Positions 35,047-48,356 are shown, counted from the first letter of the stretch. The stretch: 48,445 nt of DNA from a virus (IMGVR_UViG_3300030419_006812:1-48445), one strand, 5' to 3'. The notes: generated by a model from the letters alone, not told the origin. Numbers and translations are program-made.

Positions 35047-35749
35047 AAATATCTTTGTTTTTTAAAATTGAAATTGCTTTTGTTTTAAATTGTTTCTTTA
35101 AATTTTTAATTTGCTTGTAACCTGCCTTTCTTCCTTTTTCTGTTGTTTTATATCCCATTTTTTTTGCTACCTCTGCATCCGAGGTATTTTCAATAAATAA
35201 TAATTGATAAAGACTAAATTGGCGCTCGTTCAACACCTTTTTCATTTCCGCATGTAATTTATCTTCCGCGTGTTCTATTTGATAAGGAGCTGTGTTATCC
35301 GCAATAGGCATGTCGGCGGGGCGACTATCTAAAGAAAAAGGCATCTTGATGTCATAAGCTGCTTTTTTAGTCTTTTCCCATTTTGAATACAAGGGGCAAG
35401 TCGAATCCTGAAGCCCCGTAGAAGTGAAGCCACACAAAGCATCCTTCCCATCTTCCATATGACTGCTTTGATTGAAGGGACAGCTCAAGCAGGGCCGTAC
35501 GAAATTACTATAATAATTCCGTAAAATGTTTTTTAACTGATTACTAATTAAGCGATTCAGCCATGGTTTCAACGGACGCTCTTGGTCCCATTGATCCCAT
35601 TTTTTAAAGATGTGCGCTCTAATAATTTGAGATACATCGTCAAAGTCTATCCATGCCAAGGAATTTAAAAACCACTTTCCTCGGCGTTTTTTTAATTCTT
35701 CGTCAATTATCAGAGCTTGATCTTCGTAAGTTAGTTTCTTTTTACTCAC
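35033..35749 (-). CDS. Divergent phage RNA polymerase sigma factor (late sigma-like)
   Basis: 238 residues. Region 2 is recognisable in FDDVSQIIRAHIFKKWDQWD and RPLKPWLNRLISNQLKNILR (36-78), close to T4 gp55-type and sigma-70 region 2. A Cys-rich insert follows (Cys87, Cys90, Cys106, Cys118), probably binding zinc. A helix-turn-helix like region 4 lies at 172-225 (LNERQFSLYQLLF; TSDAEVAKKMGY). It would direct host RNA polymerase to late promoters, for which the GTGTAtAtATAA boxes are the obvious candidates. Confidence 0.82.
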   Translation of the reverse strand: MSKKKLTYEDQALIIDEELKKRRGKWFLNSLAWIDFDDVSQIIRAHIFKKWDQWDQERPLKPWLNRLISNQLKNILRNYYSNFVRPCLSCPFNQSSHMEDGKDALCGFTSTGLQDSTCPLYSKWEKTKKAAYDIKMPFSLDSRPADMPIADNTAPYQIEHAEDKLHAEMKKVLNERQFSLYQLLFIENTSDAEVAKKMGYKTTEKGRKAGYKQIKNLKKQFKTKAISILKNKDIFGNG

Positions 35750-37502: not shown

Positions 37503-37766
37503 GTGACGAAGAAAATACAGAAAAGTTCAATCAAAAAAACTTCCGATAATATCGAGGTAATTATTGGGGAAGTCCCTCTTACCAAATATGAAGTCATGAA
37601 CGCCATAGCGAAAACCCATAGTATTTATGGGGCCACCGTGTGGCTCAACACACCTCTTCAAGAACATGAAGATAAAACCCCCGCCGAACTTATGCGCGAG
37701 GGTAAAATGAAAACCGTTTCTTCGTTGGTAGAGGCAGTTCTTAAAGAACACAAAAAGAAAGAGTAA
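37503..37766 (+). CDS. MbcA/ParS/Xre antitoxin-like small protein
   Basis: 87 residues from GTG at 37503; an upstream ATG at 37419 would run across the promoter region, so I prefer GTG. The C-terminal part (ATVWLNTPLQEHEDKTPAELMREGKMKTVSSLVEAVL) matches the toxin-binding domain of MbcA/ParS/Xre (DUF2384) antitoxins, especially WLNTP and TPAELMREG. The first twenty residues are basic. The usual RES toxin partner is not present. It is one of only two plus-strand genes. Confidence 0.68.
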   Translation: MTKKIQKSSIKKTSDNIEVIIGEVPLTKYEVMNAIAKTHSIYGATVWLNTPLQEHEDKTPAELMREGKMKTVSSLVEAVLKEHKKKE

Positions 37767-38480: not shown

Positions 38481-38900
38481 TTAAACCCTTTCTAATAATT
38501 CTTCTTCGAGTACGAGATCAGCGTCTAGCGTATCAATGAACAAACGCCATTCTTTGGGAAGGTCAAGAAACTTACCTTGCCAAACTAGATGATCGTTTTC
38601 GTCTGTAATAGAAACGAAATCGGGATCAATAATTACTTCCCTATCGCAAAGCTCTAGATATAAGGCAACAGATGCTTGCGTTGACTTACCATCTTGAGAA
38701 TGGAAGAAAAAAGAAACTTCTGCATAAGCCTCTCGGTTTGCGTAGACTTCAGGCATGAAGAGTTCGTCGTACTTGTCCCAATCATCGACTCTCTGCGTCT
38801 TGTACATGCAAGCGGCAAAGTAATTGCCGTCTAAGTCGACTTGATCAGTAAAGGAAACTTCTTTAATGTTTCCAAGGATTTCGTTTAGTTTTTCCATCAT
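38481..38900 (-). CDS. Acidic early protein of unknown function
   Basis: 139 residues, acidic and beta-strand-rich (AYAEVSFFFHSQDGKSTQASVALYLELCDREVIID). Two ATGs stand together at the start; the first follows the CAAAAAACATG junction motif. Own sigma-70 promoter upstream with about 30 bases of leader. No family recognised. Confidence 0.75.
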   Translation of the reverse strand: MMEKLNEILGNIKEVSFTDQVDLDGNYFAACMYKTQRVDDWDKYDELFMPEVYANREAYAEVSFFFHSQDGKSTQASVALYLELCDREVIIDPDFVSITDENDHLVWQGKFLDLPKEWRLFIDTLDADLVLEEELLERV

Positions 38901-38935
38901 GTTTTTTGGTTAGTTGTTTTGAATAATATAATACT

Positions 38936-38964
38936 AAACTAAGCGATAAACGCGGTTCTGTCAA
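38936..38964 (-). promoter_or_regulatory. Sigma-70 promoter for the 139-residue gene
   Basis: TTGACA-N17-TAGTTT. Unlike most early promoters here it leaves a leader of about 30 bases. Confidence 0.6.
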
Positions 38965-39112
38965 GCCTCCCAAGCAAGTTTTTTGAAAAAAGTTTTTCAT
39001 GCAGTTAAGTAGTTTGACTACTGCGTGCAAATGGTTAGAAAATGTTTTTTGTAATTTTTTGGTTGACAAATGTTTTTCTGGCGTTAAGGTAATCAGCTAT
39101 ACTCTGAAAGTT

Positions 39113-39183
39113 GCGTAAGGCGTTGACTATCAAGGGTTTGCGCGGGCCGGCCTCCCTAAGTCGTTGACTAGCAACGACTTACG
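39113..39183. repeat. 71-bp double-hairpin element, copy 1
   Basis: Two hairpin halves of about 26 bases flank the GC-rich core CGCGGGCCGGCC. The right half is a near-perfect dyad, AAGTCGTTGA-N3-CAACGACTT. It overlaps the stop of the 22-residue ORF. Confidence 0.85.
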
Positions 39184-39247
39184 AAAGAAACCAGACGACC
39201 ACGCAAGGAAGCAGTAAGGGTGAAAAAGCTATAAATAGTTCAATCAT
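39179..39247 (-). CDS. Tiny membrane protein (22 aa)
   Basis: MIELFIAFSPLLLPCVVVWF with LS at the end: one hydrophobic helix. The start carries the AAAAAACATG junction motif; the stop lies inside double-hairpin copy 1. Confidence 0.45.
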   Translation of the reverse strand: MIELFIAFSPLLLPCVVVWFLS

Positions 39248-39278
39248 GTTTTTTGGTTAAAAAATGTTTTTTTGATTC

Positions 39279-39527
39279 TCAATAAGGGGGTTCAAATTCC
39301 CACGAAATATCTTCTTCTCCCGCATCTTCTTCTAAAGCGGGCTTTACGCATCGCTCCCATTCGTTGACTTCGAGAAGTCGAGCGTTGGAGTGATTCACTT
39401 GCCACGCGTCCAAAACATTCTCGGCATGAACGCGAGAAGTAAACTTGAATGCGTTTTCTTGGCTTGCAAGCTGTTCGCAAGCTTTGCCTACAAAATGATA
39501 ATCGTTTAAGCGTATAAGGTAATACAT
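39279..39527 (-). CDS. Small early protein (82 aa)
   Basis: Begins MYYLIRLNDYHFVGKACEQL, acidic end (EEDAGEEDISWEFEPPY). ATG follows AAAAAAC, the shared junction motif; it lies 12 bases after the 73-residue gene, in one operon. Function unknown. Confidence 0.7.
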   Translation of the reverse strand: MYYLIRLNDYHFVGKACEQLASQENAFKFTSRVHAENVLDAWQVNHSNARLLEVNEWERCVKPALEEDAGEEDISWEFEPPY

Positions 39528-39539
39528 GTTTTTTGTGTT

Positions 39540-39761
39540 TTACTGGTTGTCGTTTAATTCAAATTCCAAAAGCTTGGCTTGCTCAAGGTGCTTTTGTGCG
39601 TGGGCATTGCGTTCTGTTTGGGAAAGCAAAGTGCGAGCCATGCCAGCACAACGCAACCAAAAGCTTGCACGCTCTTGATGAAAGGCAATCGTTTCGGCAA
39701 TCCGCAAAGGGCGATTGAATGGGGAATGTTCTGCAACTCGGTTTTGTTCGTTTTGTATCAT
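39540..39761 (-). CDS. Small helical early protein (73 aa)
   Basis: Helical (RIAETIAFHQERASFWLRC; AHAQKHLEQAKLLEFEL). First gene of a three-gene unit. Its ATG is exactly at the predicted transcription start of the promoter upstream, so it appears leaderless. Confidence 0.7.
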   Translation of the reverse strand: MIQNEQNRVAEHSPFNRPLRIAETIAFHQERASFWLRCAGMARTLLSQTERNAHAQKHLEQAKLLEFELNDNQ

Positions 39762-39767
39762 GCCTTA

Positions 39768-39796
39768 AATCTAGTTTAAAGATGGGTTTGAGTCAA
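39768..39796 (-). promoter_or_regulatory. Sigma-70 promoter, leaderless type
   Basis: TTGACT-N17-TAGATT; the A of the ATG at 39761 is the seventh base after the -10 box. Confidence 0.75.
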
Positions 39797-39804
39797 GCTT
39801 TTCC

Positions 39805-39957
39805 TCAACTTTTTTTGAGCTTCGCAAGCTCGTTGCGGATATGGTTTGCGTGCATGGCACGCATCGACGCAAGCGAAGGCTTACGAGAGCGGTTCAGCTT
39901 GGCTTCCCACCAAGCGAGGTCTTTTTCTAGTTTTGCGATTTTTTCTTGTTTTGTCAT
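39805..39957 (-). CDS. 50-aa coiled-coil family protein, copy 1
   Basis: MTKQEKIAKLEKDLAWWEAK, then a KLNRSRKPSLASMRAMHANH segment. It is nearly identical to the gene at 41884-42036 and related to 42504-42653. A short amphipathic helix pair with a basic middle; nucleic acid or protein binding is possible. Second gene after 40000-40230, with two junction motifs between them. Confidence 0.75.
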   Translation of the reverse strand: MTKQEKIAKLEKDLAWWEAKLNRSRKPSLASMRAMHANHIRNELAKLKKS

Positions 39958-39999
39958 AATGGTTAAAAAATGTTTTTTGGTTAAGAAATGTTTTTTTGC

Positions 40000-40230
40000 C
40001 TATCGGCTGTGGAAGCCGAAATGGGTTTGGCTACTGCCGCAAGCCAAAGGGCGTTTGCCCTCGTCTATGTGCTTGCATAGACCGCCAAAATAAGCAACGG
40101 CTTTTTCAAGCTCAAGCTTTTGCTCAAGCTCGGCAATCTGCCGATAGATTGACTGCCGCTCGGCAGGAGTGAGGACGGAGTCCACAAGGACTTCCCGAAG
40201 GATGGAGATCTCTTTCTTAATCTTAATCAT
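40000..40230 (-). CDS. Small coiled-coil early protein (76 aa)
   Basis: MIKIKKEISILREVLVDSVL start, then a heptad-like IYRQIAELEQKLELEKAVAYF. Start codon lies at the predicted +1 of its promoter. Function unknown. Confidence 0.7.
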   Translation of the reverse strand: MIKIKKEISILREVLVDSVLTPAERQSIYRQIAELEQKLELEKAVAYFGGLCKHIDEGKRPLACGSSQTHFGFHSR

Positions 40231-40236
40231 ACCTAT

Positions 40237-40264
40237 ATAATGACAGAAATTCCCTAAAACGCAA
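40237..40264 (-). promoter_or_regulatory. Sigma-70 promoter, leaderless type
   Basis: TTGCGT-N16-CATTAT preceded by CTGT; ATG at 40230 is at +1. The 40265-40469 stretch upstream is non-coding and carries hairpin remnants and the AAGTTCGACTTTTTTT block. Confidence 0.75.
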
Positions 40265-40469
40265 ACTTTTTTTCATAAAGTAATCTTTTGATGCGTAAGT
40301 GCTTAATGATCAACGAAATAAAAATGTTATCTTTTTTTACTTTTTTTTGCGACTCGCAAAGGTTTTCGCAAGTTCGACTTTTTTTGTGGCGTAAGTGGTT
40401 GAGTTGTAATGACTTACGTAGAAAATGAACTGCTCAAAAACAGATTGGCACGCAATGTGTCCGTGAGTT

Positions 40470-40540
40470 GCGTAAGTGCTTGACTATCAACAGGTTGCGC
40501 GGGCCGGGCCGCCTAAGTCGTTGACTGTCAACTACTTACG
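40470..40540. repeat. 71-bp double-hairpin element, copy 2
   Basis: Core CGCGGGCCGGGCCGCC; flanking halves GCGTAAGTGCTTGACTATC... and TAAGTCGTTGACTGTC..., each able to fold on itself. Single-hairpin relatives lie at 40290-40317 and 40389-40419. Confidence 0.88.
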
Positions 40541-40647
40541 AATCTAATCCAATCCATTAGCACGATGCTGACAATGTATAAGCTGAGCGAATAGGCTACG
40601 GCTTTGACGGGCTTGGCGAGAATTTCTAATCGTTCGATAATGTTCAT
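40528..40647 (-). CDS. Small membrane protein (39 aa)
   Basis: An amphipathic MNIIERLEILAKPVKAVAY is followed by a hydrophobic helix SLSLYIVSIVLMDWI. Last gene of the 41495-40528 unit; its end lies inside double-hairpin copy 2. Confidence 0.5.
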   Translation of the reverse strand: MNIIERLEILAKPVKAVAYSLSLYIVSIVLMDWIRFVSS

Positions 40648-40693
40648 TGTGTTTACTTGGTTAGTTTGTGTTTATGTGGTGAGAAAATGTTTT

Positions 40694-41005
40694 TTAGTAG
40701 GGAAAAGAATCTTGAGCTTGCCCGACAAGCAAATCACCCGCTTGTCCTGTTTGAGTGTTGGCACAAGTATAGACTGCGACAACCTTGACACATTGACGCT
40801 TCCAAGTGTCGTTGCCATCAAGCCCACGATACCAACGCTTGACCGCATCGACTGGGGTCTTACCATACGCTTGTACCCTGCCGCTGTGGTCACCAGTGCG
40901 ATTCTGGTAATATAGCACATAGCAATTGCCGCTTGTGTAAGCGTCCCACTTGGCTTGGTTACGCTTGCAACGCCCTGCATAATCCCTATCCTTTACGGCA
41001 TTCAT
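40694..41005 (-). CDS. Small basic early protein (103 aa)
   Basis: Contains GRVQAYGKTPVDAVKRWYRGLDGNDTWKRQ, with an aromatic, basic character. Three bases separate it from the stop of the 34-residue ORF. No family recognised. Confidence 0.68.
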   Translation of the reverse strand: MNAVKDRDYAGRCKRNQAKWDAYTSGNCYVLYYQNRTGDHSGRVQAYGKTPVDAVKRWYRGLDGNDTWKRQCVKVVAVYTCANTQTGQAGDLLVGQAQDSFPY

Positions 41006-41008
41006 GGT

Positions 41009-41113
41009 TCAATAATGTTTTTTGTGTTTGTTCTTACGACTGTACTTGGTCTTGACCTTGTGAGGGCGTGACTTAGTGAAAACGAAAGGGATTCTGACTT
41101 TTGGCTGTCTCAT
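41009..41113 (-). CDS. Tiny very basic protein (34 aa)
   Basis: MRQPKVRIPFVFTKSRPHKV, then mostly Lys/Arg/His. ATGA overlap with the upstream gene and a three-base gap to the next support coding. Nucleic acid binding is likely by charge. Confidence 0.55.
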   Translation of the reverse strand: MRQPKVRIPFVFTKSRPHKVKTKYSRKNKHKKHY

Positions 41114-41259
41114 GCCTTGACAAGTCGAAAGCGACGATTGCCAGTCGAGTTCGCCAAGCGAACCCGAATGAGCTTGTCGGCCTTTGCCTGTGGCATTGGC
41201 AGGGTTTCAGTTTGCCAAACTGCGTTGGCGTGGTTTGCGATGGATTGCAGTATATACAT
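41110..41259 (-). CDS. Small early protein (49 aa)
   Basis: MYILQSIANHANAVWQTETL, then basic VRLANSTGNRRFRLVKA. Good AAGGA site before the ATG and tight coupling to both neighbours. Function unknown. Confidence 0.65.
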   Translation of the reverse strand: MYILQSIANHANAVWQTETLPMPQAKADKLIRVRLANSTGNRRFRLVKA

Positions 41260-41270
41260 AATTGTTTTCC

Positions 41271-41495
41271 TTAGCTGAAGATTGCTTTGAGTTCGGGACT
41301 TACAGCGTCCATATCAACGAGGTTCTCGTCTTGGTCGAAATCGACTTCCTCGGCTGGAGTCCAGCCGTTGACTTCGTCCTCGATGTCCTCGGTGGAAGCG
41401 TGAACAACGCTTTCCAGTTCGGTGTCGCCCTTTTCAGCTAGGGCAACGGCGTGAGCCTTGCGGATGAGTTCTATTCTTGAAGCTTTTTCTATCAT
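41271..41495 (-). CDS. Acidic 74-aa family protein, copy 1
   Basis: RIELIRKAHAVALAEKG start and EEVDFDQDENLVDMDAVSP end match the 74-residue gene at 44915-45139. Very acidic C-terminus, possibly a DNA mimic or a protein-binding tail. First gene of a five-gene unit, leaderless. Confidence 0.75.
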   Translation of the reverse strand: MIEKASRIELIRKAHAVALAEKGDTELESVVHASTEDIEDEVNGWTPAEEVDFDQDENLVDMDAVSPELKAIFS

Positions 41496-41501
41496 GCCTC
41501 T

Positions 41502-41529
41502 ATAATAGACTAATATAGAAAAACAGCAA
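41502..41529 (-). promoter_or_regulatory. Sigma-70 promoter, leaderless type
   Basis: TTGCTG-N16-TATTAT; ATG at 41495 is at +1. From 41530 to 41727 is non-coding, with hairpin remnants (41558-41582, 41665-41697) and the AAGTTCGACTTTTTTT block at 41647. Confidence 0.65.
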
Positions 41530-41727
41530 CAACATTCGTATGCAGTTAACTTTCAGATGCGTAAGGCATTGATAATCAAAGAGAAAAGAATGAATTTTTT
41601 TTGTCTTTTTCTTCATCTCCTTCGGGGCAAAAATCGACTTTTCGTGAAGTTCGACTTTTTTTCGTGCATAAGTTGCTGACGCTCAATAAGTTACGCAGAA
41701 ATTCAACCGCTCAAAAACAAATTGTTT

Positions 41728-41798
41728 TCGTAAGTCGTTGACTATCAAGGGTTTACGCGGCCCGGGCCACCTAAGTCGTTGACTAACAACAACTTATG
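41728..41798. repeat. 71-bp double-hairpin element, copy 3
   Basis: Core CGCGGCCCGGGCCACC between two hairpin halves. It lies just past the terminator of the 50-aa family gene. Confidence 0.88.
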
Positions 41799-41812
41799 AA
41801 TCTTCCCCTCGT

Positions 41813-41867
41813 AAAAAAAACCGCTCTCGGTGCTCGCCTAGCCTCAGCGAGCCTTACCCGAAAGCGG
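41813..41867 (-). terminator. Long two-stem terminator, copy 1
   Basis: Outer stem CCGCTCTCGG / CCGAAAGCGG and inner stem GCTCGC / GCGAGC; on the minus strand followed by T8. The copy at 42433 has matching changes on both sides of the outer stem. Confidence 0.85.
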
Positions 41868-41883
41868 TTAGAAAATGTTTTTC

Positions 41884-42036
41884 TCACTCAGCCTTGAGCT
41901 TGGCAAGCTCATTGCGGATGTGGTTTGCGTGCATGGCACGCATCGACGCAAGCGAAGGCTTACGGGAACGGTTGAGCTTGGCTTCCCACCAAGCGAGATC
42001 TCTTTCGAGCTTTTTGATTTTTTCTTGTTTTGTCAT
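41884..42036 (-). CDS. 50-aa coiled-coil family protein, copy 2
   Basis: MTKQEKIKKLERDLAWWEAK start by agreement with the other two copies; an in-frame ATG 12 codons earlier falls in the leader hairpin and is not used by the paralogs. It has its own promoter with a leader of about 90 bases and its own terminator. Confidence 0.75.
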   Translation of the reverse strand: MTKQEKIKKLERDLAWWEAKLNRSRKPSLASMRAMHANHIRNELAKLKAE

Positions 42037-42047
42037 ACTGTCTTTGA

Positions 42048-42082
42048 AATCGTTGGGGGAGCCACTGCCCATTTACGGCTCT
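42048..42082 (-). ncRNA. Leader hairpin of 50-aa family gene, copy 1
   Basis: GAGCC-N13-GGCTC followed by CCCCAACGATTT in the 5' leader. Two relatives at 42673-42709 and 42737-42772 keep the stem while changing its bases. Confidence 0.55.
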
Positions 42083-42131
42083 TAGTGTGGGATTTTCATT
42101 TTCATTGCCTTTCTCGATTGTTTATAAATAC

Positions 42132-42159
42132 ATTATGACAGGTTTTTTCAAAAAGACAA
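42132..42159 (-). promoter_or_regulatory. Sigma-70 promoter with long leader
   Basis: TTGTCT-N16-CATAAT. The region 42160-42347 upstream is non-coding, with an A-rich stretch, hairpin remnants and the AAGTTCGACTTTTTTT block at 42267. Confidence 0.7.
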
Positions 42160-42347
42160 ACTAATTCGTTTTCAGCTAACTTTTTGTTTCATAACTTGCT
42201 GATAATCAAAGAAATAAAAAAGAAGAAAAAAATATCTGTCTGCGGAGCAAAATCTGAGTTTTTGGTAAGTTCGACTTTTTTTCATGCATAAGTCATTGAG
42301 GCTTAAAGAGTTACGCCAAAAATTAGCATGTCAAAAACGGATTCTTT

Positions 42348-42418
42348 TCGTAAATCGTTGAATATCAAGGGTTTACGCGGCCCGGGCTACCTAAGTCGTT
42401 GACCATCAAGGACTTACA
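42348..42418. repeat. 71-bp double-hairpin element, copy 4
   Basis: Core CGCGGCCCGGGCTACC; halves are slightly degenerate (TAAATCGTTGAATATCAAGG, TAAGTCGTTGACCATCAAGG). Confidence 0.85.
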
Positions 42419-42432
42419 AAACTTCCCCTCGT

Positions 42433-42487
42433 AAAAAAAACCACTCTCGGCGCTCGCCTAGCCTCAGCGAGCCTTACCCGAAAGTGG
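42433..42487 (-). terminator. Long two-stem terminator, copy 2
   Basis: Outer stem CCACTCTCGG / CCGAAAGTGG, inner stem GCTCGC / GCGAGC, T8 on the minus strand. The G-to-A and C-to-T differences from copy 1 keep the pairing. Confidence 0.85.
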
Positions 42488-42503
42488 TTAAAAAATGTTT
42501 TTC

Positions 42504-42653
42504 TTAACCAGTGAGCTTGGCAAGCTCATTGCGTGCATGGTTGAGATGCAAGGCTCTGATGGAAATCAGAGACTGCTTCCGTGAGCGGTTCAGTTTGTCT
42601 TGCCAAAAGGCAATGTCCTTTTGGAGTTTTTCGATTTTTTGTTGTTTTGTCAT
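42504..42653 (-). CDS. 50-aa coiled-coil family protein, copy 3
   Basis: 49 residues, MTKQQKIEKLQKDIAFWQDK start, KLNRSRKQSLISIRALHLNH and NELAKLTG end. The most divergent copy, but layout (leader hairpins, terminator, double hairpin) is kept. Confidence 0.72.
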   Translation of the reverse strand: MTKQQKIEKLQKDIAFWQDKLNRSRKQSLISIRALHLNHARNELAKLTG

Positions 42654-42672
42654 AATGTCTTAAAAGTCTTTT

Positions 42673-42772
42673 GGAATCGTTGGGTGGGCTAAGTCCCTTC
42701 AAAGCCCTTGATTGGGTGTTTTTGTTTTCATTGTCAGAATCGTTGGGGGAGCCACTGCCCAGTTACGGCTCT
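42673..42772 (-). ncRNA. Two tandem leader hairpins of 50-aa family gene
   Basis: 42737-42772 repeats GAGCC/GGCTC; 42673-42709 has GGGCT/AGCCC instead, a compensated change. Both are followed by CCAACGATTC. They lie in the leader of about 145 bases; no ORF is seen between. Confidence 0.55.
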
Positions 42773-42804
42773 TAATTCAGTGCTTTTCTCATTCTCATAT
42801 ATAC

Positions 42805-42832
42805 ATAATGACAGGTTTTTGCAAAAAGACAA
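42805..42832 (-). promoter_or_regulatory. Sigma-70 promoter with long leader
   Basis: TTGTCT-N16-CATTAT preceded by CTGT. Upstream 42833-43028 is non-coding, with hairpin remnants (42861-42891, 42966-42996) and the AAGTTCGACTTTTTTT block at 42949. Confidence 0.7.
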
Positions 42833-43028
42833 ACTCTTTCTTTTCAACTAGCTTTTCTGTTGCGTAAGGTGTTGACGACTAGACCTTTACGAAAAAAACT
42901 TTTTTTTAAGAAAAGTCGATTTTCTCGGAGAGTTTCGGCAGTTTTTGCAAGTTCGACTTTTTTTGATGCGTAAGTCGTTAAGGCTCAAAGAGTTACGCCA
43001 AAAATTAGCGTGTCGATGTGCGCAAGTT

Positions 43029-43099
43029 TCGTAAGTGCTTGACTATCAACAGGTTACGCGGGCCGGGCCGCCTAAGTCGTTGACTAACAACGACTTACG
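43029..43099. repeat. 71-bp double-hairpin element, copy 5
   Basis: Core CGCGGGCCGGGCCGCC; the second half contains TAAGTCGTTGA and CAACGACTTA around a short loop. Confidence 0.88.
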
Positions 43100-43115
43100 A
43101 AACAAACGAGAGCCC

Positions 43116-43143
43116 AAAAAGCCCTCGCGGTGGCAACGAGGGC
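43116..43143 (-). terminator. Terminator after the 95-aa gene and its tiny ORF
   Basis: Stem GCCCTCG / CGAGGGC, followed by T5 on the minus strand. Confidence 0.85.
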
Positions 43144-43168
43144 ATTTGGTTAAAAAATGTTTTTTTGG

Positions 43169-43240
43169 TTAGGTTATCATGCCTTTGCCGAAATGCCACG
43201 CAATGTTAAAAATCACAAAGAAAACAATTGCAGTAATCAT
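43169..43240 (-). CDS. Tiny membrane protein (23 aa)
   Basis: MITAIVFFVIFNIAWHFGKG then MIT: a single hydrophobic helix. It begins one base after the stop of the 95-residue gene (TAAAATG), the same junction as at 38479. Confidence 0.5.
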   Translation of the reverse strand: MITAIVFFVIFNIAWHFGKGMIT

Positions 43241-43241
43241 T

Positions 43242-43529
43242 TTAAGCTATGTTGTTGAGAGCTTTTTCTTGCTCGGTTTCATTTTCTGCGAGCGAATTAT
43301 TAACCAACAGCGTAGCCGCATCATTGGCTAGGGTGGCAAGTTCCTCCATCCACCCTGCAATGCTTTCAGCGTAAACTTTAGCAAACTCGCCATCTTCATC
43401 GACTTGTTTTTGTGCCATGTTGCCAATCGACTTTGCATTGCGGCAAATGTCGAGGAGCTTGTCGCCCACTTTGAAGTTCTCGCCCAGTCGAGCGTCTATC
43501 AGGTCTACAATATCAATTTTTTTATTCAT
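43242..43529 (-). CDS. Small acidic helical protein (95 aa)
   Basis: MNKKIDIVDLIDARLGENFK start, helical body (AESIAGWMEELATLANDAATLL). Leaderless start. No family recognised. Confidence 0.75.
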   Translation of the reverse strand: MNKKIDIVDLIDARLGENFKVGDKLLDICRNAKSIGNMAQKQVDEDGEFAKVYAESIAGWMEELATLANDAATLLVNNSLAENETEQEKALNNIA

Positions 43530-43535
43530 AATAAG

Positions 43536-43564
43536 ATTTTCTCAAATTTTGCGTTAACTGTCAA
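43536..43564 (-). promoter_or_regulatory. Sigma-70 promoter, leaderless type
   Basis: TTGACA-N17-GAAAAT; ATG at 43529 is the seventh base after the -10 box. Confidence 0.75.
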
Positions 43565-43579
43565 GCGTTTTTGTTAAAT

Positions 43580-43813
43580 TTATTCTTCCACTAGTGGAGC
43601 GATTTCGTACCAACGGAGAGAGCCAAACATTCCTGCGTTTTCTCTCTCGATGCGAGTCTTTAAGCCCAACTCTTTAAAGTGTTTTTGTTCCTCACGAAAA
43701 ATCCTACGGAAGTGTGACAGACTGCTCGCAGTCCGTACTCGTGGAAATTCACCGCCTTCGAAAATCTTGACGGAGATGGAAGTGGTCAGTTCTTTAATAA
43801 GTATCGTAATCAT
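43580..43813 (-). CDS. Small early protein (77 aa)
   Basis: MITILIKELTTSISVKIFEG start. An ATG three codons earlier (43822) lies inside the -10 box, so the start at 43813, which coincides with +1, is preferred. It has a basic middle (SHFRRIFREEQKHFKELG). Function unknown. Confidence 0.7.
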   Translation of the reverse strand: MITILIKELTTSISVKIFEGGEFPRVRTASSLSHFRRIFREEQKHFKELGLKTRIERENAGMFGSLRWYEIAPLVEE

Positions 43814-43819
43814 AAATAC

Positions 43820-43848
43820 CATTGTGCAGAAAAAGGTCTTTGAGTCAA
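43820..43848 (-). promoter_or_regulatory. Sigma-70 promoter, leaderless type
   Basis: TTGACT-N17-ACAATG, which is a weak -10; the spacing to ATG 43813 matches the other leaderless units. Confidence 0.6.
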
Positions 43849-43960
43849 TCCCTAAGTGAATTTTTTTAAAGTTTTTACCGAAAACTTTTCTGGTTAGTTT
43901 CTAACCAAAAATGTTTTTTTAACCCAAACGAGAATTGGCATGAGGTTTGTACACTTGTTT

Positions 43961-44141
43961 TATAAGTCGTTGACTATCAACAGGTTGCGCGGGCCGGCCT
44001 GCGTAAGTCGTTGACTGACAAGGACTTACGAAACAAGGCGGTAAGTCATTGACTATCAAGGAGTTACAAAAGTTCCCTAAGCTGTTGGCTGACAACCACT
44101 TACGACTTTTGCATAAGTCGCTGGCTATCAAGCACTTACAT
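43961..44141. repeat. Double-hairpin element copy 6 plus three single hairpins
   Basis: 43961-44030 is a full element with core CGCGGGCCGGCCTGCG. Single hairpin relatives follow at 44041-44068, 44076-44104 and 44111-44141. The cluster fills a gap of almost 400 bases (43860-44256) without a credible gene. Confidence 0.85.
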
Positions 44142-44154
44142 AATTCAAAAGCTA

Positions 44155-44170
44155 GACCCCCCTCGGGGTC
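44155..44170. terminator. Short GC hairpin, possible terminator
   Basis: GACCCC-CCTC-GGGGTC lies after the 110-residue gene; no T run follows closely, so terminator function is uncertain. Confidence 0.4.
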
Positions 44171-44175
44171 ACTCA

Positions 44176-44245
44176 CTATTTGTCTATTTGTACGCGTGCG
44201 GGCATGCGGCCTATTTGTCTATTTGTACGCGTGCGGGCATGCGGC
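44176..44245. repeat. Perfect 35-bp tandem duplication
   Basis: Two identical 35-base units, each with CTATTTGTCTATTTG and TACGCGTGCGGGCATGCGGC, followed by a further CTATTT. Each unit has an internal CTATTTG repeat. Confidence 0.95.
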
Positions 44246-44256
44246 CTATTTAAAAA

Positions 44257-44589
44257 TTAGTAATCTTCCCCACCAAAGCAACCATAATCCTCATCAGTCC
44301 CGAAGCCCGCAGAGGTCATAGCAGAGTCAAAATCTCCGTCCATGCTTTCGTCCATGTCATCACCATAGTCAGGAAGATCAAATTCATGCACCAACTCACA
44401 CCTAACAATCTTGCCACAGGCATCGTAAGTGATAAATTGAATTTCCAATTGCCACAGCTCATCAAAGCTTCCTTCGTGGTCAACAAGCACCTGCTCGGCT
44501 TGTTGGTAGGCTTGCTCTAGCCCTGTGCTGTTTTTCTCGAACCAGTCGAGGCAGATTCCGTTTTGGATTAGTTCGTATCTTTTTTTCAT
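44257..44589 (-). CDS. Acidic early protein (110 aa)
   Basis: MKKRYELIQNGICLDWFEKN start, DYGDDMDESMDGDFDSAM near the end. The acidic tail suggests protein binding or DNA mimicry. Leaderless. No family recognised. Confidence 0.78.
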   Translation of the reverse strand: MKKRYELIQNGICLDWFEKNSTGLEQAYQQAEQVLVDHEGSFDELWQLEIQFITYDACGKIVRCELVHEFDLPDYGDDMDESMDGDFDSAMTSAGFGTDEDYGCFGGEDY

Positions 44590-44596
44590 AATACTA

Positions 44597-44625
44597 AGTA
44601 TGGCAGATTAAAGGTTAATTGTCAA
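44597..44625 (-). promoter_or_regulatory. Sigma-70 promoter, leaderless type
   Basis: TTGACA-N17-CATACT, one of the strongest here; ATG at 44589 is the eighth base after the -10 box. Confidence 0.8.
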
Positions 44626-44632
44626 GGTTTTT

Positions 44633-44788
44633 TTAACGAATAACAATCCAATTGGGCTGCATGTCGGCCACGAAATCATCCGCATCCGATTGGGATGGAG
44701 CGTCCACCTTAGCGAACTGAATGCGACCAGTCACCCGATGGACAGCCACGACTTGAAAACTTTGGAGAGAGTTAATTTGATTGTTCAT
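44633..44788 (-). CDS. Small early protein (51 aa)
   Basis: MNNQINSLQSFQVVAVHRVT start; ends FVADMQPNWIVIR. Own leaderless promoter. Likely real because promoter, start and stop are all tightly placed; function unknown. Confidence 0.65.
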   Translation of the reverse strand: MNNQINSLQSFQVVAVHRVTGRIQFAKVDAPSQSDADDFVADMQPNWIVIR

Positions 44789-44794
44789 AATAAT

Positions 44795-44823
44795 ACATTA
44801 AGTTAAGTCGCCCATAAAGTCAA
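44795..44823 (-). promoter_or_regulatory. Sigma-70 promoter, leaderless type
   Basis: TTGACT-N17-TAATGT; ATG at 44788 is at +1. Confidence 0.72.
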
Positions 44824-44841
44824 CCCCTAAATGAAAATAGT

Positions 44842-44912
44842 TGTAAGTCGTTGGCTATCAACGACTTGCGCGGCAGGGGCCGCCTAACCCGTTGACTATC
44901 AACTACTTAGGA
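44842..44912. repeat. 71-bp double-hairpin element, copy 7
   Basis: The core is altered to CGCGGCAGGGGCCGCC. It touches the stop of the acidic 74-residue gene. Confidence 0.82.
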
Positions 44913-44914
44913 AC

Positions 44915-45139
44915 CTAATTGAACAACGACCTCATTTGTGGTGAGATTGCGTTCATGTCAACCTCGTTCTCGTCTTGGTCGAAGTCAATTGCTTCGACAC
45001 GCCCAAGAGCATCAAGATGGGAGGACTCGTCCTCAACATCTTCTTTGGTGGGAGGCAAAAGCTCGGCAATGAAAGTTCCTTGTTCATTAAGGGCTTTGGC
45101 GTGAGCTTCACGGATTAGTTGTATTCTGTCTGTAGTCAT
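44915..45139 (-). CDS. Acidic 74-aa family protein, copy 2
   Basis: RIQLIREAHAKALNEQG and AIDFDQDENEVDMNAISP match the gene at 41271-41495 closely at both ends; the middle differs. Last gene of a four-gene overlapping operon (45746-44915). Confidence 0.75.
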   Translation of the reverse strand: MTTDRIQLIREAHAKALNEQGTFIAELLPPTKEDVEDESSHLDALGRVEAIDFDQDENEVDMNAISPQMRSLFN

Positions 45140-45350
45140 ATGTTTCTCCCATTAGGTCTGAGGTTAAAATAAATGTTCTTCTATCATCACCACTACTTTC
45201 CAAGGGGGTAAAAGTTCCTTGGCTTACATTACGAGAAACGCAATCTCTACTAATATAATATTCCCCTTGTTTGCGGTTTTCTTGTGGGGCTACTTCCACA
45301 ATACCCACCATGTTTCCGTAGATAGTTTTTAAAATAAATTTATTCTGCAC
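45108..45350 (-). CDS. Small early protein (80 aa)
   Basis: MQNKFILKTIYGNMVGIVEV start, beta-rich. It overlaps the next gene by 32 bases and the previous one by 11, so it depends on coupled translation. Function unknown. Confidence 0.65.
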   Translation of the reverse strand: MQNKFILKTIYGNMVGIVEVAPQENRKQGEYYISRDCVSRNVSQGTFTPLESSGDDRRTFILTSDLMGETYDYRQNTTNP

Positions 45351-45570
45351 TTAGTATCCTTTCCCACGTATTCCAAATTTCCTCGTCCCTTCGGTCTTGT
45401 GGTGAAAGACTGGCGTTGAAATCATCAATCGCTTGACTTTTGCTTATTCTTTCCACGAGTTCACGATTCGCCTCCTTCTCAGCTTTGAGCCACTTAGGAG
45501 CGGTTAGCTTTGGTTTAAGAAAAGATTTAAGAAATGCATCTAAGGCAGGATCTTTACTTGCTACTTTCAT
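45340..45570 (-). CDS. Small basic-helical early protein (76 aa)
   Basis: MKVASKDPALDAFLKSFLKP start; Lys/Ala-rich helix, then SPQDRRDEEIWNTWERIL. ATGA overlap with the upstream gene. Confidence 0.7.
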   Translation of the reverse strand: MKVASKDPALDAFLKSFLKPKLTAPKWLKAEKEANRELVERISKSQAIDDFNASLSPQDRRDEEIWNTWERILSAE

Positions 45571-45746
45571 TTTACAGCTATAAGTTGGTTTTTGTGATTG
45601 ATGATGTGAGATTGGTGATTCTCCTCGGCGATTTCCTTGGCAATATGTAATGCCTTGGCTCGCCCTTGCACTTGTTCAATAAAACGCCCAAACGCAAAGA
45701 TGTTGAAGATTCCCCCGAAGTTTTCGTTCTTTTCAATTTTAATCAT
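45567..45746 (-). CDS. Small early protein (59 aa)
   Basis: MIKIEKNENFGGIFNIFAFG start, then a helix RAKALHIAKEIAEEN. First gene of the four-gene operon. Start is at +1 of a strong promoter. Function unknown. Confidence 0.7.
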   Translation of the reverse strand: MIKIEKNENFGGIFNIFAFGRFIEQVQGRAKALHIAKEIAEENHQSHIINHKNQLIAVK

Positions 45747-45752
45747 AGCTCA

Positions 45753-45780
45753 ATTATGCAGTTTTTGGGTATTCTGTCAA
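45753..45780 (-). promoter_or_regulatory. Sigma-70 promoter, leaderless type
   Basis: TTGACA-N16-CATAAT; ATG at 45746 is the seventh base after the -10 box. Confidence 0.82.
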
Positions 45781-45783
45781 GGG

Positions 45784-46068
45784 TTAAAGTATAGCTTCAG
45801 AATCAAATTGATTCAACTCCTCTTGGAGCTTGGCAACTTGTGCCAAGTGTTTGCGGTAAGTGTGGTCTGTATACTTTTTGTAATACTCACGCTCGGAGTC
45901 GGTATACTTTTCCTTGTTATAATACAATTCAAGGAAGTAATGCAACTGGTGCTGATGATGCATCAACCGCTTTACTTTCTTGCCGTAGTTGTCCTTATCT
46001 TTGGGATAAGTAACTGCGTTTTCGTCGGTGGCGATTCCTTCAATATCTTCTTTTGTTATCTTAATCAT
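45784..46068 (-). CDS. Small charged early protein (94 aa)
   Basis: MIKITKEDIEGIATDENAVT start at +1. An in-frame ATG at 46116 would put the promoter inside the gene, so it is rejected. Contains LMHHQHQLHYFLELYYNKEKY and a helical end. Function unknown. Confidence 0.73.
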   Translation of the reverse strand: MIKITKEDIEGIATDENAVTYPKDKDNYGKKVKRLMHHQHQLHYFLELYYNKEKYTDSEREYYKKYTDHTYRKHLAQVAKLQEELNQFDSEAIL

Positions 46069-46074
46069 AGGAAT

Positions 46075-46103
46075 ACAATAAGCGAAAAAACCCATTCTGT
46101 CAA
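46075..46103 (-). promoter_or_regulatory. Sigma-70 promoter, leaderless type
   Basis: TTGACA-N17-TATTGT; ATG at 46068 is at +1. Confidence 0.78.
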
Positions 46104-46130
46104 ACTTTTTCTTCAATTAAATGCAAGTTT

Positions 46131-46202
46131 TCGTAAGTCGTTGACTGTCAAGGAGTTGCGCGGGCCGGGCCACCTAAGTCGTTGAGCATCAACTACTTAG
46201 AC
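46131..46202. repeat. 71-bp double-hairpin element, copy 8
   Basis: Core CGCGGGCCGGGCCACC; the second half overlaps the last codons of the 83-residue gene. Confidence 0.87.
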
Positions 46203-46448
46203 ATCTGAAGCTGAGTTTTCCTCGAATTGTTGAATGTCTTTGTCTAGTTGCTGGAAGTGTGCTTCGTATGCTTGCCAGTCATCACCGAAGCCCGCCTCGT
46301 ATACCTTTTGCATATACTCTTGCTCGTAAGCATATTGTGCGTCATCGGCTCTTAGGTCTGCCAACTCGGAAGCATAGCGTTCTCGGACATCATCGTATTG
46401 TGCCCCGAATACATGGTCTGCGTGTTCTTGTGCCTGTGAATAATACAT
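46197..46448 (-). CDS. Small acidic early protein (83 aa)
   Basis: MYYSQAQEHADHVFGAQYDD start, Tyr/Asp/Gln-rich, with FGDDWQAYEAHFQQLDKDI. The partial gene at the right edge has a similar YGDDWQKEIAVLQELIKE segment. Second gene of a two-gene unit. Confidence 0.7.
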   Translation of the reverse strand: MYYSQAQEHADHVFGAQYDDVRERYASELADLRADDAQYAYEQEYMQKVYEAGFGDDWQAYEAHFQQLDKDIQQFEENSASDV

Positions 46449-46452
46449 AACT

Positions 46453-46659
46453 TTAGAATTTTAAGGATTGAATGCGGGTGTTCTTTTTAAGCCAACGCCT
46501 TAATGGGTGAAATGCTTTTGCTGACAAATGTGCTAGATACTGCTGTCCATTGGTGGCAAGAATCATGTGACCACTTGCTAACTGCCGAATCTCCTTGATG
46601 TCAGGACATTTCTTCAGTTGTTTCATTACTTTGCGTGTTCCGCTTTCTGAGTGTTTCAT
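46453..46659 (-). CDS. Small basic early protein (68 aa)
   Basis: MKHSESGTRKVMKQLKKCPD start and HPLRRWLKKNTRIQSLKF end; basic, perhaps nucleic acid-binding. Leaderless start. Confidence 0.68.
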   Translation of the reverse strand: MKHSESGTRKVMKQLKKCPDIKEIRQLASGHMILATNGQQYLAHLSAKAFHPLRRWLKKNTRIQSLKF

Positions 46660-46665
46660 AGTATA

Positions 46666-46694
46666 TAGTTTGACAGATTATGGTGTGAAGTCAA
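46666..46694 (-). promoter_or_regulatory. Sigma-70 promoter, leaderless type
   Basis: TTGACT followed at 17-18 bases by AAACTA or AACTAT; ATG at 46659 is at +1 with the first choice. Confidence 0.6.
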
Positions 46695-46791
46695 GTGTTT
46701 TGTTGTGTCCCTATTCCTCTCTCCCTTTCGGGTTGTAGGCGTGGATTCAGACGCCTCGTTGTTCAATGCTTTCGCATCTACAGGAAAATGC

Positions 46792-46917
46792 TGGGCTTGA
46801 CAGGACTCGAACCTGCGACCTCTTGTTTGCTCCACGGGTAATTAAGCCGTTCGCTAATTTATCTAGAATTTTCACGATGAAGGAGGACAAGGCTCTAACC
46901 AACTGAGCTACAAGCCC
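46792..46917 (-). tRNA. tRNA-like gene with about 50 extra bases in the anticodon region
   Basis: Acceptor GGGCTTG pairs with CAAGCCC, D arm GCTC-AGTTGGTTA-GAGC, T arm GCAGG-TTCGAGT-CCTGT, variable loop AGGTC. CTTGT and ACAAG can form the anticodon stem, but about 58 bases lie between them instead of 7. The insert can extend the stem (CTCC/GGAG) and holds hairpins (TTCA/TGAA, ACGG/CCGT). Total 126 bases against about 74 normally. The anticodon cannot be assigned. CCA is not encoded (GCA follows). Intron, novel insertion or pseudogene remain open. Confidence 0.75.
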
Positions 46918-46945
46918 ACAACTAAACTTTAAAGAACTGAATACA

Positions 46946-46973
46946 ATTATGACAGCTTGTCAACTAAACGCAA
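46946..46973 (-). promoter_or_regulatory. Sigma-70 promoter for the tRNA-like gene
   Basis: TTGCGT-N16-CATAAT preceded by CTGT; about 20 bases of leader before the tRNA 5' end. Confidence 0.72.
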
Positions 46974-47001
46974 GCTTTTTTTTGCCTCATAGGCATTTTA
47001 T

Positions 47002-47073
47002 TCATAAACCCTTGATAGTCAACGGGTTGCGCGGGCCGGGCGCCCCAAGTGGTTGATAGTCAACGACTTAGCG
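47002..47073. repeat. 71-bp double-hairpin element, copy 9
   Basis: Core CGCGGGCCGGGCGCCC. The first half has changed to AACCCTTGA...TCAACGGGTT, keeping the pairing with new bases. Confidence 0.85.
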
Positions 47074-47082
47074 AACGAATCA

Positions 47083-47119
47083 GAAAAAGAAAAACCCCCG
47101 CCTTTCCGAAGGGCGAGGG
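47083..47119 (-). terminator. Rho-independent terminator after 86-aa gene unit
   Basis: Stem CCCTCGCC / GGCGGGGG (one G-T pair) on the minus strand, followed by a T-rich tail. Confidence 0.82.
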
Positions 47120-47142
47120 CTTTCCTTAATAACAGCAACCAA

Positions 47143-47208
47143 TCAACCAAAAAAGATAATTGCGTACATTAAGACCCACGGCAAAAGGAGCAGAAGTTCC
47201 CAACTCAT
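47143..47208 (-). CDS. Tiny membrane protein (21 aa)
   Basis: MSWELLLLLPWVLMYAIIFF plus Gly: one hydrophobic helix. ATGA overlap with the 86-residue gene. Confidence 0.5.
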   Translation of the reverse strand: MSWELLLLLPWVLMYAIIFFG

Positions 47209-47465
47209 TTTCCCAACGCTCCCTCTATTACGGGGCGAGCAACCAAATTGCGAACAGCATAACCGCTCTTGCCGTATTGCTTGCCTTTAATGACTGACTT
47301 AAACGAACGAGTCGGAAAGTCATAATAAGCAGGAACAGCCGACCCTGCCTTGTTTAAATAAGTGAACCAAAGTTTTTTGCCAACACGCTCTAGCCCTTGA
47401 GGCTCGTACTTGGCGACTTTAGTCACGGCGTTTGCTTTTTCTTCGAATGAGAATTCTGTTTGCAT
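47205..47465 (-). CDS. Small basic early protein (86 aa)
   Basis: MQTEFSFEEKANAVTKVAKY start, with YLNKAGSAVPAYYDFPTRSFKSV. Two bases after the upstream stop, same operon. Function unknown. Confidence 0.7.
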   Translation of the reverse strand: MQTEFSFEEKANAVTKVAKYEPQGLERVGKKLWFTYLNKAGSAVPAYYDFPTRSFKSVIKGKQYGKSGYAVRNLVARPVIEGALGK

Positions 47466-47467
47466 AA

Positions 47468-47623
47468 TTATATCCTTGTGATTGTGTATGGTGAGTGTTG
47501 GGTTAGTCGGTCAAGTTTCTGCTCAAGTATCCTAATCGCCTGAACGCAGGACTCAAGAGTCATCGCAGGCGAAACTGCTTTGCCGTTACAGAGAACTTTA
47601 TAATTGTTTAATTGAGTATCCAT
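47468..47623 (-). CDS. Small early protein (51 aa)
   Basis: MDTQLNNYKVLCNGKAVSPA start, then a helix SCVQAIRILEQKLDRL. An in-frame ATG at 47659 lies in the -35 box and is rejected; 47623 fits +1. Confidence 0.7.
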   Translation of the reverse strand: MDTQLNNYKVLCNGKAVSPAMTLESCVQAIRILEQKLDRLTQHSPYTITRI

Positions 47624-47630
47624 GTTTAGT

Positions 47631-47659
47631 ATTCTCTCAGTTTTGGTGTGGATTGTCAA
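47631..47659 (-). promoter_or_regulatory. Sigma-70 promoter, leaderless type
   Basis: TTGACA-N17-GAGAAT; ATG at 47623 is the eighth base after the -10 box. It overlaps the end of the upstream gene. Confidence 0.7.
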
Positions 47660-48014
47660 GCATCAAATCTGACCTAGCGTCACTTCTATCAAGATGCATT
47701 TGGGAGATGACGGCATGAATATCTTTAGGGTCACCTTGGAGACTTGTCATTAGCTCGTCCAAGTCATCCTCGGTTTGCCAACCAAGAACATCATCGAAAG
47801 GCGAAAGCGGAAGCATTGAGTCATTGTGGAACACGGCAACTTCATAAGTACCTGCGGAGGCATTACCATAAAGACCTCCATACTGCGTGAGCCCATTTCT
47901 CATGGCTACTACGGAAATCTCGATGTTGTTGCCCAAGTCAAGCCTTGCGTGAATGCCATCGGGATTGTGGGCGTGGTCGGTGAAAACTAAGTCGTTGAAG
48001 TTTTTGATTGTCAT
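47637..48014 (-). CDS. Early protein (125 aa)
   Basis: MTIKNFNDLVFTDHAHNPDG start; strand-rich (RLDLGNNIEISVVAMRNG; YGNASAGTYEVAVFHND), acidic end. Resembles no family I can name. Leaderless start. Confidence 0.76.
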   Translation of the reverse strand: MTIKNFNDLVFTDHAHNPDGIHARLDLGNNIEISVVAMRNGLTQYGGLYGNASAGTYEVAVFHNDSMLPLSPFDDVLGWQTEDDLDELMTSLQGDPKDIHAVISQMHLDRSDARSDLMLDNPHQN

Positions 48015-48021
48015 ACCTATG

Positions 48022-48049
48022 AGTATGACAGAATCCTAGTAGATTGCAA
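48022..48049 (-). promoter_or_regulatory. Sigma-70 promoter, leaderless type
   Basis: TTGCAA-N16-CATACT preceded by CTGT; ATG at 48014 is the eighth base after the -10 box. Confidence 0.75.
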
Positions 48050-48077
48050 GCTTTTTTTTACTTTTTTTTATTAGATT

Positions 48078-48147
48078 CTCAAGTCCTTGATAATCAATGG
48101 TTTACGCAGGCCCGGCCTCCACAAGTCGTTGACTATCAATAACTTAG
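48078..48147. repeat. 71-bp double-hairpin element, copy 10
   Basis: Core CGCAGGCCCGGCCTCC; the second half CAAGTCGTTGACTATC overlaps the stop of the 70-residue gene. Confidence 0.85.
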
Positions 48148-48356
48148 AGATATTCGTCGGTGAAAGTATAGCTCGCCTCGTGGAGCAAGTCAACGAATTG
48201 CAAGTAATGCTCGATCTGTGAAAAGCGGATATGTTTTTGCATTAAGTGGGGAAAGGTACGCGGATTCTCACTTTTTACACTGAGGCAATAAGTAATATCA
48301 TAAAAATGCTTGCCGTCTTCGAATCCCTCGGTAACTGCATAAGTTTTTGTTTTCAT
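48144..48356 (-). CDS. Small early protein (70 aa)
   Basis: MKTKTYAVTEGFEDGKHFYD start, strand-rich, ends HEASYTFTDEYL. One-base overlap with the upstream partial gene. Function unknown. Confidence 0.7.
   Translation of the reverse strand: MKTKTYAVTEGFEDGKHFYDITYCLSVKSENPRTFPHLMQKHIRFSQIEHYLQFVDLLHEASYTFTDEYL

Follow-up and report, generated by a model that had tools for sequence, protein, structure and literature searches.

We studied a repeated DNA element in the 48,445-bp virus record IMGVR_UViG_3300030419_006812:1-48445 (hereafter the window). The element probably forms the boundary of mobile early-gene cassettes and works like promoter-early stem-loops (PeSLs), with recombination most likely homologous. 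The case is built from sequence. It comprises the position and geometry of the element, gain, loss and reordering of cassettes at it, homogenization of its core, and absence of covariation in its stems. Ten copies, each of ~66-72 bp, occupy the last 10 kb of the window (Table 1). All were found between transcription units, where a preliminary description of the window had located them, and mean column identity is 85%. In each copy, a GC-rich core of 16-17 bp separates two palindromes, A and B, both 25 bp long and with the consensus TAAGTCGTTGA-n3-TCAACGACTTA. Allowing at most two mismatches, the arm TAAGTCGTTGA has 60 matches in the window, compared to 12.9 expected, and none of 100 shuffles scored as high. 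Paired half-sites number 15 in the window and zero in a shuffled copy. Seven further half-copies lie among the full elements.

The element has copies in relatives, as the preliminary description anticipated, and recurs in dozens of related IMG/VR contigs. Briefly, a strict pattern matched 30 stretches in IMG/VR, and a profile scan of relatives detected 238 double elements (the first set). Two wider scans added 92 loci with at least two doubles. Of these, 84 are from contigs not used earlier and provide a second, independent set of 395 doubles. A known gene of the block containing the elements, or of its neighbourhood, is also encoded in 65 of the 92 stretches. Palindrome centres are a constant distance apart within a phage (96% of doubles have the modal spacing), whereas other phages have other distances (about 40 to 60).

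Comparison of relatives reveals cassettes that differ at the element. In contigs G014 and G016, a cassette of ~415 bp sits between two elements. At the same place, G013 has one element, and the flanks are 89-93% identical. Similarly, a cassette of 282 bp in G026 corresponds to one element in G027, with flanks 81% and 92% identical. The single G027 element is a hybrid. Arm A1 is from the left element (11/11 vs 7/11 matches), while A2, the core, B1, and B2 are from the right element (11/11, 26/28, 11/11, and 11/11, respectively). Hence, the crossover is located inside palindrome A. Furthermore, G014, G016, and G003 have cassettes, 87-97% identical, in differing orders, with some matches inverted. 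Recombination joints had been among the roles initially proposed, and gene exchanges with breakpoints in the element are indeed evident between relatives (G013/G014/G016 and G026/G027). We consider movement of cassettes at the element to be well supported.

The core behaves differently to the flanking DNA. Its G+C content is 84.5%, and its self-symmetry is 0.556, compared to 0.383 for shuffled cores. Cores are found in both orientations, and a core resembles its own reverse complement less than it resembles those of the other cores of its phage. We identified 34 element pairs with homologous flanks on both sides. Here, core identity was 0.67 to the ortholog and 0.79 to paralogs in the same phage (p=1.5e-5). 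For the 16 pairs with flanks at least 80% identical, the difference has p=0.017. The clearest case is G014 at 30572 and G016 at 12134. The flanks are 95-97% identical, palindrome A 96%, and palindrome B 100%. The cores are CGGCGGCCCGGCCCGCC and CGGCGCGGGGGCGCCG, each matching the type of its own phage. In one G014/G022 pair, the cores are 17 and 28 nt long and palindrome B is identical. We conclude that core sequence and length follow the phage, not the cassette, so that the core is best described as a phage-specific module evolving in concert. Gene conversion, copying core-containing tracts between elements of one genome, would explain this homogenization. Selection for a phage-specific core would do so too. 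The preliminary description had missed this property of the core, and also that elements lie between convergent and divergent genes.

With respect to genes, elements flanked on both sides by homology-supported genes (92 classified) are at 64 tandem, 20 convergent, and 8 divergent borders. Among 146 gene tails facing an element, 52 have a stop codon no more than 30 nt away, often in the TAA of the element itself. For the other 94 tails, a T-tailed terminator separates stop codon and element in 53 cases, compared to 8% of random intervals. Conversely, just one of the 110 gene heads that face an element has such a terminator. Five convergent pairs have both stop codons against the element, so there is no room for another terminator. 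In the window, e5 and e9 lie beyond T-tailed terminators. Elements e3 and e4 come after a longer hairpin with eight T's, reading the minus strand (about 41880-41820 and 42490-42430). For e7, e8, and e10, a stop codon abuts or falls within the element. We looked for a U-tailed stem-loop and found no U-tract after the element. Thus, the view that the elements are not themselves the T-tailed terminators held up. Toward the promoter, 65 or 66 nt separate the element edge and the start codon in 43 of 255 cases of the first set; a sigma-70-like promoter is present, its -10 box only a few bases from the ATG. At e10, for example, the low edge and the ATG of gene 47637-48014 (-) are precisely 65 nt apart. 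In the second set, the same distance occurred in 23 of 448 cases. We do not adopt a 65-nt rule, which the first set supports strongly and the second weakly. Note that promoter-like sequence at this spacing is beside many copies, and none is expected at convergent borders. Together, these placements indicate that the element delimits units regardless of gene orientation.

The preliminary description had called the element a double hairpin, with arms that change while staying paired, as in copy 9. This was not borne out. In 218 non-redundant doubles, variable stem positions are paired in 54.2% (A) and 60.8% (B) of cases. After arms were re-dealt within each phage, the values were 54.8% and 62.0% (z=-0.7 and -1.6). 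The independent set gave z=0.2 (A) and -1.8 (B). Among the ten copies in the window, no pair has changed on both sides, and 84.5% of cells are paired, compared to 85.9% after shuffling. Copy 9 pairs only in a shifted, bulged register, and positions 7 and 19 of palindrome A are mismatched in most copies. Hence, conservation of an RNA hairpin is unsupported in both sets and the window, since stems change without a matching change in the other arm. The symmetry is best read as that of a DNA site in three modules. Near-invariant positions are TAA and TTG, with their complements, which is compatible with recognition of the double strand. Most likely, the element is a double-stranded DNA site whose lineage-specific symmetric core lies between two dyad-symmetric half-elements suited to binding by a dimeric protein. 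Such binding is presumed, as is binding or insulation as the reason the sequence is kept; the primary selected role is unproven. An RNA role may exist, because the element RNA folds better than mononucleotide shuffles (mean z -3.7). The inner arms, A2 and B1, are short of complementarity (z=-5.8 and -6.3 in the two sets), and this is probably due to elements occurring in both orientations. The first set also seemed short of double changes at positions 5 and 8, but the second set did not confirm this, and we make no claim of it.

We propose that a cassette would span one element to the next and contain its own gene or genes, usually with a dedicated promoter and at times also a terminator. When two elements recombine, whole cassettes would be deleted, inserted, reordered, or inverted, and genes left unbroken; this exchange is most likely homologous and mediated by a RecA-like protein of the phage or host. 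Exchange tracts would copy the core between elements within one genome and, hence, each phage would keep its own core sequence and length. We searched for enzymes. The tyrosine recombinase domain (PF00589) was found in 0 of 33 records, which may be fragments, with 14 of 14 controls positive. The serine resolvase domain (PF00239) was found in 0 of 33 records, and the Y1_Tnp transposase domain (PF01797) in 0 of 21, with control genomes positive in each case. A RecA-like gene is present in 5 of 21 records searched, all five being 79-194 kb. Given this gene, and no site-specific recombinase domain, homologous exchange is the simplest mechanism, though the records are fragments. A gene for a zinc-finger XPF/Hef-type protein, beside TerL, is kept in 18 of the compared phages. 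We regard the product as a candidate branched-DNA nuclease, unproven in this role. It is one possible agent for a bolder idea, which we consider a long shot: that the core serves as an identity tag specific to each phage. Some factor of the phage, recognizing or cutting around the element, would then force incoming cassettes to adopt the resident core, by cleavage-driven gene conversion. If so, a phage could capture foreign early genes yet keep its own element tags.

Several observations weigh against cassette exchange as the function of the element. Gaps at synteny breaks hold an element in 46 of 76 cases, compared to 16.9 expected by random placement, but this figure is supportive rather than decisive because the test ran on element-masked alignments, favouring gaps at elements. 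Elements were also present in 12 of 12 collinear gaps. One junction only was resolved cleanly, and the relatives are all contigs from metagenomes. No consistent rule, gene direction included, governs core orientation. For all 34 ortholog pairs, arm identity is 0.78 to the ortholog and 0.78 to paralogs; hence, the arms, too, are mixed among copies. Where flanks are at least 80% identical, arms are weakly closer to the ortholog (0.82 vs 0.78, p=0.1). Finally, the repeats could be maintained for some other reason, with recombination at them as a by-product. One such reason might be transcription insulation, with bound protein or RNA hairpins stopping or processing transcripts at cassette ends, in both directions, and shuffling as a side effect. 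The gene tails that stop at the element, often in its TAA, the five convergent pairs without space for a separate terminator, and the folding of element RNA fit this explanation. We nevertheless think it unlikely. With separate T-tailed terminators before the element in over half of the farther-stop intervals, it would often be redundant as a terminator. Furthermore, it has no U-tract after it, its stem pairing is not conserved by compensation, and it is also present at divergent borders, where no transcript ends.

Alternatively, a phage regulator might bind the two palindromes and switch early promoters, as MrpR does with the SPbeta repeated element (SPBRE). MrpR is a repressor, and the SPBRE to which it binds is a motif of 15 bp located in promoter regions (PMC10516654). 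Our element is likewise a repeated intergenic motif in a phage, and the window TerL has distant relatives in Bacillus and Clostridioides phages. The dyad-symmetric half-sites, at constant spacing within a phage, and the many copies 65-66 nt from a short-leader ATG, would suit an operator. However, the element is a ~70-bp composite, and 20 of the 92 classified copies are between two gene tails, with no promoter adjoining. The distance rule is weak in the independent set, palindrome spacing varies between phages, and we identified no candidate regulator, nor is a repressor known. We judge an operator distinctly unlikely. Very unlikely, in our opinion, is a cassette system of the integron-like or Xer-like kind, in which the element would be a site for site-specific recombination, its palindromes the recombinase sites and its core the spacer. 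Integron attC sites have two dyad sites around a variable symmetric centre, accompany tandem cassettes of small genes, and are alike within a genome. The element shares all of these features, and the G027 crossover lies inside one palindrome. Unlike attC, which has a conserved fold and variable sequence, the element conserves half-site sequence and not pairing, and its cassettes carry their own promoters. Neither an IntI-type tyrosine recombinase nor a serine resolvase was detected in the 33, possibly fragmentary, records. Core homogenization is also not readily explained by site-specific exchange. The many paired palindromes per genome recall an autonomous REPIN/BIME-like repeat, spread by a Y1 transposase. 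The chances of this are slight in the extreme, since copies are limited to one block and to gene borders, and no RAYT (Y1) transposase was found in 21 records.

Of known systems, the closest are the PeSL cassettes of T4-type phages, reportedly described by Arbiol (2010) and Comeau (2014), both cited in PMC4503421. In both systems, a repeated boundary lies beside early promoters, and small accessory genes are shuffled modularly, between related phages, by recombination between repeats. Unlike a PeSL, the element has two 25-bp palindromes around a phage-specific core, no U-tailed stem-loop terminator, and is also at convergent and divergent borders. Unlike T4, its carriers encode a polymerase of the bacterial DNA polymerase III type and a helicase of the DnaB type. 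The PeSL likeness in the preliminary description, which had already called the sequence different, holds for function and not for sequence. The element functions like a PeSL, but the definition of one excludes it, given that a U-tailed stem-loop is missing and its phages are not of T4 type. PMC4503421 summarizes how PeSL cassettes shuffle genes in T4-type phages. Our results extend modular shuffling at repeated boundaries to an unrelated lineage with a different element. The stoperators of mycobacteriophage L5 are also multiple site copies in one phage genome, but they are asymmetric and dispersed across the genome (PMC4557955), whereas the element is dyad-symmetric and limited to one ~10-kb block. 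We found no description of such an element in the open-licence literature. It separates cleanly into a conserved outer part and an inner core evolving in concert within each phage. Elements are natural junctions at which to study gain and loss of small early genes, among which genes for host takeover and anti-defence are often found. They also provide a sequence tag to recognize such cassette arrays in metagenomes.

The carriers are a large, widespread, uncultured phage lineage, not T4-type. A relative of the window TerL, 38-78% identical, is encoded by 25 of 29 contigs tested, and most TerL relatives whose contigs reach the block carry the element. The best TerL match to any cultured phage is 26%. 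Searches of cultured phages, by megablast with the block and more sensitively with one element, gave no convincing match. G027 encodes a DNA_pol3_alpha-type polymerase and a DnaB-type helicase; G021 has the same polymerase type. In full contigs, every phage has all its doubles in one ~10-kb block, even in records of 144, 170, and 194 kb. The block spans 183.7-192.7 kb of the 194.5-kb G027 record and 105-116 kb of the 170-kb G021 record. Scanning 84,980 genomes with a pattern returned 65 matches, nearly all single palindromes and many beside tRNA genes or gene ends. These are as expected of ordinary terminator-like hairpins, and we set them aside. In that scan, double elements occurred only in L173 and L129, short contigs binned in metagenome-assembled genomes (MAGs). 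Separately, the Microscillaceae MAG Prado074 has palindromes of type TAAGTnnTTGATAATCAAnnACTTA on many contigs, and a Saprospiraceae MAG has one (entries L121, L144, L156, L169, and L183). These may be a host repeat resembling the phage half-element, by chance or otherwise. In G033 (L275:1095-9276, equivalent to G033 41.1-49.3 kb) the same array genes are accompanied by a repeated core palindrome, AAATCG-n5-CGATTT, with no recognizable arms. In G030, this core palindrome and degenerate arms are both present.

Table 1. Elements, half-elements, and associated genes in the window.
Feature	Position	Strand	Remarks
Element e1	39116-39181	none	Palindrome A, core, palindrome B; centre-to-centre spacing 41
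Single half-element	40392-40416	none	81 nt from e2; repeat family D8
Element e2	40473-40538	none	Spacing 41; ortholog of G017 copies having 23-nt cores
Single half-element	41669-41693	none	62 nt from e3; repeat family D8
Element e3	41731-41796	none	Spacing 41; beyond T-tailed hairpin of upstream unit
Single half-element	42289-42313	none	62 nt from e4; repeat family D8
Element e4	42351-42416	none	Spacing 41; within 272-nt duplication shared with e3 (repeat family D6)
Single half-element	42971-42995	none	61 nt from e5; repeat family D8
Element e5	43032-43097	none	Spacing 41; beyond terminator 43143-43121
Element e6	43963-44028	none	Spacing 41; followed by three more single palindromes
Three extra half-elements after e6	44042-44066, 44078-44102, 44114-44138	none	
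Element e7	44844-44909	none	Spacing 41; 5 nt from stop codon of gene 44915-45139 (-)
Element e8	46134-46199	none	Spacing 41; element TAA is stop of gene 46197-46448 (-)
Element e9	47005-47070	none	Spacing 41; beyond terminator 47112-47095
Element e10	48080-48146	none	Spacing 42; element TAA is stop of gene 48144-48356 (-)
Early-gene cassette array	38481-48356	(-)	Short genes; 1-4 genes between adjacent elements
C2H2 zinc finger and XPF/Hef-type nuclease gene	27925-28863	(-)	Adjoins TerL; motif GDY...DRKS..D

Several genes of the array have sigma-70-like promoters and little or no leader. Many early genes, here and in relatives, seem to start a few nucleotides past the -10 box, which suggests leaderless or near-leaderless messages. 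Between 39815 and 42657, one small gene (147 nt) occurs in three diverged copies, 75-91% identical, in neighbouring cassettes. Together with the 272-nt duplication shared by e3 and e4, element included, these copies show duplication within the array. A tRNA at 46792-46917 (-) scores 49.7 bits with Rfam and was missed by ARAGORN. It has a 59-nt stretch in place of a short anticodon-loop segment. This insert is nearly identical in G010 and G030, despite differing surrounding tRNA, and an exact 22-nt piece of it is in four IMG/VR stretches. By this comparison, the insert is more conserved than its tRNA. The gene at 35033-35749 (-), conserved in 20 contigs, possibly encodes a phage sigma factor, with a weak match to sigma-70 region 2 (21.8 bits, below the cut-off). 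Beside the array, at 37596-37766 (+), a small conserved protein is encoded in 13 phages. Its motif recalls what we take to be the toxin-binding domain of Xre/MbcA/ParS-type antitoxins.

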